The position numbers and the translations under genes were made by a program. From Pelagibacteraceae bacterium (GTDB taxonomy: Bacteria; Pseudomonadota; Alphaproteobacteria; Pelagibacterales; Pelagibacteraceae), in NCBI GenBank assembly GCA_008638125.1, contig VTPM01000002.1, positions 1-60,642 on the forward strand: 60,642 nucleotides of DNA, read 5' to 3'. The notes under the pieces were generated by a model. The model was given only the letters and a program-made list of their open reading frames with translations, had not been told where the DNA came from and searched no databases. Shown piece after piece: positions 174 to 5,466 of the stretch (position 1 is its first letter; every line of letters starts with the position of its first letter).

Positions 174-201
174 TTGACTAAATGATACGTTATGTTATAA
201 C
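174..201 (+). promoter_or_regulatory. Putative sigma70 promoter of the Fur/Zur-family gene (TTGACT-16-TATAAC)
   Basis: TTGACT at 174-179, TATAAC at 196-201; predicted start point at or next to the ATG at 208. Confidence 0.5.
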
Positions 202-206
202 ATAAC
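189..206. promoter_or_regulatory. 18-bp perfect palindrome GTTATGTTATAACATAAC, candidate Zur operator
   Basis: Exact inverted repeat, 1 nt before the start codon of a Fur-family gene and covering its putative -10; resembles proteobacterial Zur boxes (ATGTTATA/TATAACAT core). Confidence 0.75.
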
Positions 207-207
207 A

Positions 208-597
208 ATGAGTGATAACAATACGCTTGTGTTAAATAGCCTTAAATCAAGTCCAAATGGTTTAACGGCATACCAAATATTAAATCTTCTACAAAAAACT
301 AAGCCTATTAAACCAATGACAATTTATAGATCTCTAGAAAATCTTACAAAGAAAGGTTTGATACACAAAACTAACAAAAATAAAACCTTTCATCTCTGTG
401 AGGCAAGCCATAATTGTAATATTTCAGAAGCTCATGAACATAATTCTGTTTTTGTAGTTTGTGATAAATGTGGACTAACAGAGGAATTAAAAACTAATCT
501 GTTTTCTACCACAATCAAAAAAATTAAATCAAAGAAAAAATTTGATTTAAAAAAATTTAAATTAGAAATAACAACAATTTGTAAGGACTGTGATTAA
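208..597 (+). CDS. zur: Fur-family metalloregulator, probably Zur
   Basis: Winged-helix pattern (TAYQILNLL..PMTIYRSLENL..GLIHK) plus His-rich segment and CDKCG...CKDC zinc-site cysteines. Confidence 0.8.
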   Translation: MSDNNTLVLNSLKSSPNGLTAYQILNLLQKTKPIKPMTIYRSLENLTKKGLIHKTNKNKTFHLCEASHNCNISEAHEHNSVFVVCDKCGLTEELKTNLFSTTIKKIKSKKKFDLKKFKLEITTICKDCD

Positions 598-974
598 TGG
601 AACATTTGATTGAAAATATAAGTTGGTTACAAGAAAATGATTACTTAAGAGGATTTGTTTTTGGATTAGTTCATACAATTATACCTTTAATAGGATTTTA
701 TTCAGGTTGGAGCGTTAATAGATTATTAAAAATTGCAAGCAATGGTTACATTGCTGGGATATTTGGTATCGTCTTAGCACATGTTGTAGCCGACTTTATT
801 GCTGCAAGTTTAGATCCTCATTTAAAATCTGCAGCTATTGGTATCGTCTTAGGTGGATTAATACCACTAACTTTAGTTCCAATTTTTGACAAATATATTG
901 TTAAAAGTAAACACCACATTGTTGTTGGTGATCATGACGATTTAAAAAAAGATTTAGAAGAACATCATCATTAA
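597..974 (+). CDS. Small hydrophobic membrane protein with His/Asp-rich C-terminal tail, function unknown
   Basis: 125 aa, about three hydrophobic segments, tail HHIVVGDHDDLKKDLEEHHH; start overlaps regulator stop (TAATG). Confidence 0.8.
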   Translation: MEHLIENISWLQENDYLRGFVFGLVHTIIPLIGFYSGWSVNRLLKIASNGYIAGIFGIVLAHVVADFIAASLDPHLKSAAIGIVLGGLIPLTLVPIFDKYIVKSKHHIVVGDHDDLKKDLEEHHH

Positions 975-3806: not shown

Positions 3807-4603
3807 ACTCTTCCCATCGCAAATCCTTTAGCAATATAATTTCTCACAAAGTAAATAACAAAAGCTCCAGGAATAATCGTCAAAGTTCCAGCGGCAGCTA
3901 ATAAACCTAGTTCATATCCTGAGGTACTAGCCGTTCTTGTCATTGTAGCAGCAATAGGTTTTGCAACTGTGGCTGTAAGTGTTTTTGCTAATAATAATTC
4001 TACCCATGAAAACATGAAACAGAAAAACATTGTAATACCTATTCCTGCAGCAATAGTTGGAATAAATATCTTAAAGAAAAATCTCCAGAAGGAGTATCCG
4101 TCAACATAAGCTGTTTCGTCTAACTCCTTTGGCACAGAAGACATAAACCCTTCTAAGATCCATACCGCTAAAGGAATATTAAATAAACAGTGTGATAAGG
4201 CTACAGCTATGTGGGTATCAAATAAATTTACCGATGAATAAAATTGAAAAAATGGCAAAGCAAAAACGGCTGGAGGTGCCATTCGGTTAGTAAGCAACCA
4301 GAAAAATAAATGCTTATCACCTAAAAATTTATATCTAGAAAATGCATAAGCTGCAGGTAAAGCTGCTGCAACTGAAATCACAGTGTTAATAACAACATAA
4401 GTGATTGAGTTTACGTAACCCATATACCAAGTGCTATCAGTAAATATTTTAATATAATTCTCTAATGTAAATTTCTGAGGCCATAAAGAATAAGTATTAA
4501 TAATCTCAGTCGTTGTTTTAAATGACATATTGATTAACCAATAAATCGGTAGCATCAAAAACAAAATATAAATTGTTGGAACTAACCACTTAAATTTTTT
4601 CAT
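3803..4603 (-). CDS. glpQ: Carbohydrate-type ABC transporter permease (GlpQ-like, glycerol)
   Basis: MalG-type EAA loop DETAYVDGYSFWRFFFKIFIP; operon context. Confidence 0.8.
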   Translation of the reverse strand: MKKFKWLVPTIYILFLMLPIYWLINMSFKTTTEIINTYSLWPQKFTLENYIKIFTDSTWYMGYVNSITYVVINTVISVAAALPAAYAFSRYKFLGDKHLFFWLLTNRMAPPAVFALPFFQFYSSVNLFDTHIAVALSHCLFNIPLAVWILEGFMSSVPKELDETAYVDGYSFWRFFFKIFIPTIAAGIGITMFFCFMFSWVELLLAKTLTATVAKPIAATMTRTASTSGYELGLLAAAGTLTIIPGAFVIYFVRNYIAKGFAMGRV

Positions 4604-5466
4604 GACTTAACCTCATTTTTCATCATTAAACTATAAAACACCCAACAAACTAAAAGCACGATGAAGAAATAAATTAAAGACATCGCAGCCGCTGGTCCTA
4701 AATCAAATTGACCCAAAGCCATTTTTACTAAATCGATAGATAAGAAAGCTGTAGCATTTCCAGGTCCACCTCCTGTTAAAACAAAAGGCTCTGTATAAAT
4801 CATGAAACTATCCATAAACCTTAATAGAATTGCTAAAGTTAAAACCTTTTTCATCTTAGGAAGTTCAATATATCTAAAAATATCCCACCTGCTTGCACCA
4901 TCAATCTCAGCTGCTTGATAATAAGCTGGCTGTATAGAATTTAATCCAGCATAAGACAACAGCACTACAAGAGATGTCCAATGCCAAACATCCATTAATA
5001 TCGTTGTAAACCAGGCGTCTCCACTTTGCTGAGTAAAGTTAAAGTCAAAACCAAGACTATTTAGTGTGTGACCTAAAAATCCAATGTCAGGTAGAGCAAA
5101 AATATTCCACATTGCACCTACTACGTTCCAAGGAATTAAAAGTGGCATCGACATTAAAATTAGACACGTTGGTACACCCCAGCCTTTTTTAGGCATTGTA
5201 AGAGCAATTCCTATACCTAGAGGAATTTGAATTAATAAAATGATAAATGTAAATGTAAATTGTCTACCCAAGGCGGCATGAAAACGATCGGATTGAAGAA
5301 TTTGTTTAAACCATCGAGTTCCTTCCCAGGCAAAAACATTGCTTCCAAAGGTTTCTTGAAAAGCATAGTTAACTACTGTCATTAATGGAACCACGGCGTT
5401 AAACGCCACCAATACAAAAACAGGTATGACAAATAACCAAGCTTTTTGATTTACAGTTTTATTCAT
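4600..5466 (-). CDS. glpP: Carbohydrate-type ABC transporter permease (GlpP-like, glycerol)
   Basis: MalF-type EAA loop QAAEIDGASRWDIFRYIELPKM; operon context. Confidence 0.8.
   Translation of the reverse strand: MNKTVNQKAWLFVIPVFVLVAFNAVVPLMTVVNYAFQETFGSNVFAWEGTRWFKQILQSDRFHAALGRQFTFTFIILLIQIPLGIGIALTMPKKGWGVPTCLILMSMPLLIPWNVVGAMWNIFALPDIGFLGHTLNSLGFDFNFTQQSGDAWFTTILMDVWHWTSLVVLLSYAGLNSIQPAYYQAAEIDGASRWDIFRYIELPKMKKVLTLAILLRFMDSFMIYTEPFVLTGGGPGNATAFLSIDLVKMALGQFDLGPAAAMSLIYFFIVLLVCWVFYSLMMKNEVKS

Follow-up and report, generated by a model that had tools for sequence, protein, structure and literature searches.

What does a membrane protein of 125 residues do when its gene overlaps that of a zinc-sensing regulator, and could it be a route of zinc uptake in bacteria devoid of ZnuABC? 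In the accessible part of the SAR11 metal survey by Hogle et al., znuA is found in 50% of 22 genomes, ZIP, NRAMP and FeoAB are absent from all 22, and no zinc importer is named for the genomes without znuA (PMC4771312). Zinc acquisition in this half of the 22 genomes is thereby left open (PMC4771312), and the gene pair described here bears on the question. Judged by title and abstract, no paper found on Zur with Pelagibacter describes the second gene of the pair.

The window, i.e., the whole stretch of 60,642 nucleotides that was analysed, lies on a contig (C50) of a Pelagibacteraceae genome of about 1 Mb that is 87.9% complete. Its forward strand begins with zur (208..597), encoding a Fur-family zinc uptake regulator of 129 aa recognised by open reading frame, profile and structure-based alignment, followed by zmpA (597..974), a name coined here for convenience, encoding a three-helix membrane protein of 125 aa. 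The two frames share 1 nt at the junction TAATG, as a reading of this DNA from its letters alone (hereafter the sequence-only reading) had described for a Fur/Zur gene and a hydrophobic protein. The evidence gathered below makes it probable that ZmpA imports zinc across the inner membrane under repression by Zur, or forms the essential core of such an importer, and that it replaces ZnuABC.

The Regulator Is a Divergent Zur

The regulator scores 39.8 bits against the Pfam FUR model (PF01475; cut-off 23.1, E 5.7e-10), which places it within the FUR domain family. Its best NCBIfam model is Zur (PRK11639), at 68 bits and below the cut-off of 167 of a model that represents the longer E. coli-type Zur, and its best match among solved structures is E. 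coli Zur (4mtd, E 1.5e-11). In E. coli Zur the roles of the sensing ligands H77, C88, H96 and E111 are established, and the cysteine of this site separates Zur from Fur. By alignment these residues correspond to H53, C64, H78 and E93 of the present protein, and the structural Cys4 zinc site consists of C85, C88, C125 and C128, so that the two C-x2-C pairs pointed out in the sequence-only reading are C85xxC88 and C125xxC128. The protein thus has the full set of eight metal ligands of a Zur; across 19 homologues they are invariant with the exception of H78, which is at least 90% conserved. On the basis of these ligands and of the predicted operator, the regulator is filed as a divergent Zur.

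A Predicted Operator Overlying the Promoter

Upstream of zur lies a perfect 18-bp palindrome, GTTATGTTATAACATAAC (189..206, forward strand), which is the predicted operator (Zur box) and ends 1 nt ahead of the start codon (ATG at 208). On the same strand, a putative -35 element, TTGACT (174..179), was read from the sequence and a putative -10 element, TATAAC (196..201), was read by eye inside the box; the spacer between them is 16 nt and therefore the box overlies the -10, with the transcript start expected near the ATG at 208. In a scan for the sigma-70 consensus the promoter alone did not rise above chance, as judged against shuffles; the spacing from TTGAC to the box recurs in many related loci. 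In most complete loci only a few nucleotides separate the box from the start of zur. The overlap of box, putative -10 and start codon, here (189-210) as in related loci, is so tight that the zur-zmpA mRNA should be leaderless.

Other Zur-controlled genes of the source genome were sought by a pattern search for the box, and the site at 189-206 is the only one with three mismatches or fewer; of 36 ZmpA genomes, 24 have a single copy of the box. Similar half-sites of the form GTTAT..ATAAC are found in the Zur sites of Caulobacter (PMC4176598) and Vibrio (PMC9817125). The operator at zmpA loci is the gapless palindrome, whereas the usual ZnuABC genomes have TGTTATATTATAACA.

The linkage between zmpA and the regulator, on which the sequence-only reading depended, is kept in most relatives and is therefore not due to chance. 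This long-conserved linkage, together with the overlap of the genes, would also fit a protein that acts on Zur from the membrane and modulates it, as in the "sensor partner" role once suggested for ZmpA. Such a role is disfavoured and appears very improbable, as zmpA also occurs without zur, either under a Zur box of its own or where the genome gave no match to Zur; in particular, four zur-less zmpA genes (L064, L056, L058, L051) have the box at their start or a short way upstream.

Distribution of ZmpA and ZnuABC

ZmpA homologues were retrieved from 46 genome contigs, mostly of SAR11 and otherwise of other marine alphaproteobacteria. At the level of whole genomes, ZmpA occurs in 11 of 289 Alphaproteobacteria, including one marginal match (E 6.6e-4), and in 2 of 399 genomes sampled across the phylum; searches of viral contigs, phages and plasmids did not find it, the two plasmid matches having E values above 0.1.

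ZmpA, Zur and ZnuB were then sought in one set of 247 Pelagibacteraceae genomes, partly incomplete and related to one another, which yielded 37 genomes with ZmpA, 198 with Zur and 170 with ZnuB. ZmpA and ZnuB meet in a single genome (G343), where all that is left of zmpA is a fossil 3' end following znuA. Of the 102 genomes that are near-complete (at least 90% completeness), 15 have ZmpA, 81 have ZnuB, none has both and six have neither, so that another zinc route may exist. Fisher's test gives p values of about 1e-20 for the 247 genomes and 1.6e-13 for the 102, shared ancestry being ignored; at least five genera (g1, g2, g3, g226, g233) each contain genomes of both kinds. ZmpA and ZnuB are mutually exclusive in this set, and the linkage of zmpA to zur, whose co-occurrence across SAR11 the sequence-only reading had proposed to analyse, is conserved in most relatives.

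Searches for other importers agree with this distribution. None of the 36 genomes with an intact ZmpA has ZnuA, which was detected in each of six ZnuB genomes used as controls, and a search for ZIP (PF02535) gave no match above the cut-off in 42 genomes, the eight weak matches being zmpA itself. In the source genome, 87.9% complete, ZnuB and ZnuA genes were not found, which extends to the genome the absence of a znuABC-type transporter remarked on earlier. Nine ZmpA genomes have no Zur match, and all nine are also without ZnuB. The SAR11 strain HIMB058 carries the zur-zmpA pair (L042), and neither ZnuB nor ZnuA was found in G291, which is inferred to be its genome.

Traces of Exchange between the Two Systems

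The fossil in G343 is instructive as to how the two systems relate. The stop codon of znuA is followed by a frame, KSRYHTVVGDHDDLKKDLKKKHR-stop, that corresponds to the ZmpA C-terminus, and then by a GcrA-like gene; the same GcrA-like gene adjoins an intact zmpA in two congeners (G416, G328). Here a single locus has seen one zinc system swapped for the other. A hybrid cassette is present in G326 (locus L126), where a Zur and a box of the ZmpA type stand ahead of znuA; its Zur groups in the ZmpA clade with that of L076 (support 97/97), whereas the other ZnuABC loci examined have a Zur of a different clade and mostly the box TGTTATATTATAACA.

The zur-zmpA pair resembles the Zur-ZnuABC cassette in having a Zur with all metal ligands and a Zur box at the promoter; the two share their genomic role and, in G343, their locus as well. 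The pair differs in that an ABC importer is replaced by a single three-helix protein.

Fold and Conserved Residues of ZmpA

An AlphaFold2 model based on 51 sequences (pLDDT 78.5) shows three long helices and a short tail helix. Helix 1 spans aa 15-44 (639..728, forward strand) and, by alignment, holds the invariant H26 (672-674); helix 2 spans aa 50-72 (744..812, forward) and holds the invariant H62-xxx-D66 (780-794); helix 3 spans aa 77-102 (825..902, forward). The residues invariant in the 51 members are G19, F22, G23, H26, G33, Y35, S39, N41, K45, G50, G54, G57, H62, D66, D73, G82 and G87. In the tail, the alignment identifies the motif GDHDDLKKDL (aa 111-120; 927..956, forward), of which the form GDHx[DE] is present in 48 of the 51 members.

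The sequence-only reading had taken the His/Asp tail, HHIVVGDHDDLKKDLEEHHH, which is confirmed as read, for its main argument. The terminal His cluster (HHH) is rejected as a functional signature, since at least two His among the last five residues are found in 15 of 51 members; what stands of the argument is the conserved GDHxD motif, to which the conserved intramembrane H26 and H62xxxD66 are now added.

Some members have a signal-peptide-like N-terminal stretch followed by a His-rich segment, AEGHSHELPEFLHF. Together with the positive loop R42/K45, this N-terminus argues for a topology with the N-terminus out and the C-terminus in. Tandem zmpA copies occur only in L023, G314 and G351 and would fit with a protein acting as an oligomer. 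The three are Fonsibacter-type genomes (the copies of L023 at 3856-4679), in which a heteromer is possible, and the second copy of L023 has a signal-peptide-like N-terminus.

Relationship to Known Families

Against Pfam and NCBIfam, ZmpA scores below the cut-off of every model, and a fold search of the PDB with the ZmpA model gave no match. In a profile comparison with seven MntP proteins, ZmpA reaches a score of 34 over 48 columns, in which its aa 19-66 correspond to TM2-TM3 of MntP; the highest score from 200 block-shuffles was 23.9, and no more than 22.8 was reached by any of 99 other membrane open reading frames. This points to a distant but real link of ZmpA helices 1-2 with part of the MntP repeat. 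The profile search of the HMM-HMM type that had been suggested for the 125-aa protein leads, distantly, to a metal transporter.

ZmpA was rejected as a member of MntP itself. Its score against PF02659 is 20.7 bits, for a cut-off of 24.4; MntP, a putative manganese efflux pump, has six helices in a 3+3 repeat, whereas ZmpA has three; and the acidic, DAF-type (Asp) motifs of MntP are in TM1 and TM4, whereas the alignment of ZmpA spans TM2-TM3 and the TM1/TM4 motifs are absent from it. A separate MntP-family protein (43.6 bits) is encoded in the source genome (G000, contig C39:2327-2740, locus L148), and therefore zmpA is not the MntP of that genome. That ZmpA is an MntP-like exporter, the nearest profile relative being a putative Mn efflux pump, is nevertheless hardly credible: the acidic motifs are missing, ZmpA is mutually exclusive with an importer, and Zur boxes normally repress uptake genes at plentiful zinc.

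Other candidates were also rejected. Some ZmpA members give weak Pfam matches to ZIP TM1-3 (best E 3.5e-5), but all are below the cut-off and the hhalign score against ZIP (PF02535) is inside the shuffled null; ZIP zinc transporters share the function proposed for ZmpA, which lacks their HNxPEG-type motif. Profile scores against MerC are inside the null. The fold of PsaL (photosystem I) gave the top Foldseek matches with a first model (E 0.42), disappeared with a deeper model, and is also rejected by a profile comparison scoring inside the shuffle null.

Genes Adjoining zmpA in Other Genomes

In several genomes zmpA sits among genes of zinc uptake. In L037, zur and zmpA are followed by zrgA, an ABC ATPase, a MacB/FtsX-type permease and DUF3299, with MerC next door, and the genes after zmpA are zrgA-zrgC-zrgB-zrgE. 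ABC systems of the MacB/FtsX-type class are not expected to import ions by themselves, which raises the question of whether ZmpA is the translocator in L037 too. In terms of the ZrgABCDE zinc uptake system of Vibrio (PMC9817125), zmpA here lies in a zrgABCE operon after zur; ZmpA is distinct from ZrgA, ZrgB, ZrgC and ZrgE, and Pfam gives it no match to DUF2607, the family of ZrgD. In the marine alphaproteobacterial loci L037, L039, L040 and L046 a divergent zur is immediately 5' of zmpA.

COG0523-type GTPases flank zmpA in L056 and L058, where the Zur box is present. A comparable case is ZrpW of Caulobacter (CC0320), an uncharacterised Zur-repressed putative transporter with six transmembrane helices that is probably co-transcribed with a COG0523 gene (PMC4176598). 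Compared by description only, ZrpW is likewise a Zur-repressed orphan membrane protein beside a COG0523 GTPase, but has six helices where ZmpA has three. Moreover, zmpA lies between a TonB receptor and MerC in L035 and directly after an apparent His-rich TonB receptor in L054. A gene for a cation diffusion facilitator (CDF) exporter adjoins zur-zmpA in L059 and L129 (G341).

These neighbourhoods are not universal. No box or zinc gene is visible near zmpA in L002, L006, L033, L036, L043 and L063, among others, and beyond Pelagibacteraceae both zur and a recognisable box are missing from the surroundings of many members, which counts against the importer reading. In L063, L066, L067, L070 and L082 zmpA is found without zur or a recognisable box, in genomes also without znuB, and its regulation there reads as lost or different.

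The presence of zmpA beside zrgABCE or COG0523 genes lends some weight to the view that ZmpA is a required accessory, i.e., a membrane zinc-binding protein or chaperone passing zinc to an unrecognised transporter, and not the translocator; the small size of the protein, its conserved GDHxD tail and its N-terminal His-rich variants would suit such a task. Even so, this seems unlikely, given that no partner transporter is linked to zmpA in SAR11 genomes without ZnuA, ZnuB and ZIP, and that the most conserved residues sit within the helices.

As Zur regulons may include zinc-sparing genes, ZmpA might instead carry a different metal (Mn, Co or Fe) with which the cell spares or replaces zinc when it is scarce, as the distant profile link to MntP could also suggest. 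This is quite improbable in view of the replacement of ZnuABC, under Zur control and in the very same place, of the zinc-uptake genes that adjoin zmpA elsewhere, and of the separate MntP that the source genome retains. Zinc is most likely the metal handled by the zur-zmpA pair.

A Proposed Model for Zinc Uptake by ZmpA

The importer reading is favoured because of the exclusion with ZnuB, the absence of ZnuA and ZIP, the scar in G343 and the hybrid in G326; the conserved Zur box, the zinc neighbourhoods and the nine Zur-less genomes without ZnuB; and the profile similarity to MntP with the invariant H26, H62, D66 and D73. The sequence-only reading had proposed a new metal-homeostasis pair, possibly including a small metal permease, and both proposals gain much support from the fact that ZmpA and ZnuABC exclude each other, from the conservation of the Zur box and from the zinc genes that adjoin zmpA.

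According to the proposed mechanism, zur and zmpA would form a minimal cassette for zinc uptake: when zinc is sufficient Zn-Zur would occupy the predicted box and block transcription; when zinc is low, Zur would leave the box and zur-zmpA would be transcribed, probably as a leaderless mRNA. ZmpA would then let zinc through the inner membrane, with its N-terminus in the periplasm and, on the cytoplasmic side, the GDHxD tail and the R/K loop that joins helix 1 to helix 2. At least two copies may assemble, such that H26 and H62-xxx-D66 would form an intramembrane metal path and the GDHxD tail would accept the ion. The identity of Zur, the predicted operator over the putative -10, the gene overlap and the replacement of ZnuABC are the parts of this mechanism read from the sequences; that ZmpA itself would move zinc is its weakest step.

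Several points weigh against the importer reading. With 125 aa and three helices, ZmpA would be a very small transporter and an oligomer would be needed. Its nearest characterised relative, MntP, is an exporter whose TM1/TM4 Asp motifs are absent from ZmpA, which could be a mere accessory where zrgABCE is present. The fold has no PDB match, the genomes are partly incomplete and related, and the six near-complete genomes with neither system hint at a further route for zinc. Taking these points together with the evidence above, a Zur-controlled role of ZmpA in zinc acquisition in the wider sense is very likely, and the fuller proposal of a new importer family, consisting of an oligomeric, three-helix unit of 125 residues that replaces ZnuABC in part of SAR11, is about evenly poised between true and false.

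Collectively, these data present ZmpA as a candidate for a new family of zinc importers, set within a type of regulation that is already known. If this is true, ZmpA would be a very small addition, without a Pfam or NCBIfam model, to the short list of zinc transporters, and with its three helices it would rank with the smallest metal importers known. The organisms that carry it would then be miscounted in surveys for which znuABC or ZIP is the mark of zinc uptake. In many SAR11 bacteria ZmpA appears to hold the place of ZnuABC beside Zur, making it a strong candidate for a new zinc uptake protein.
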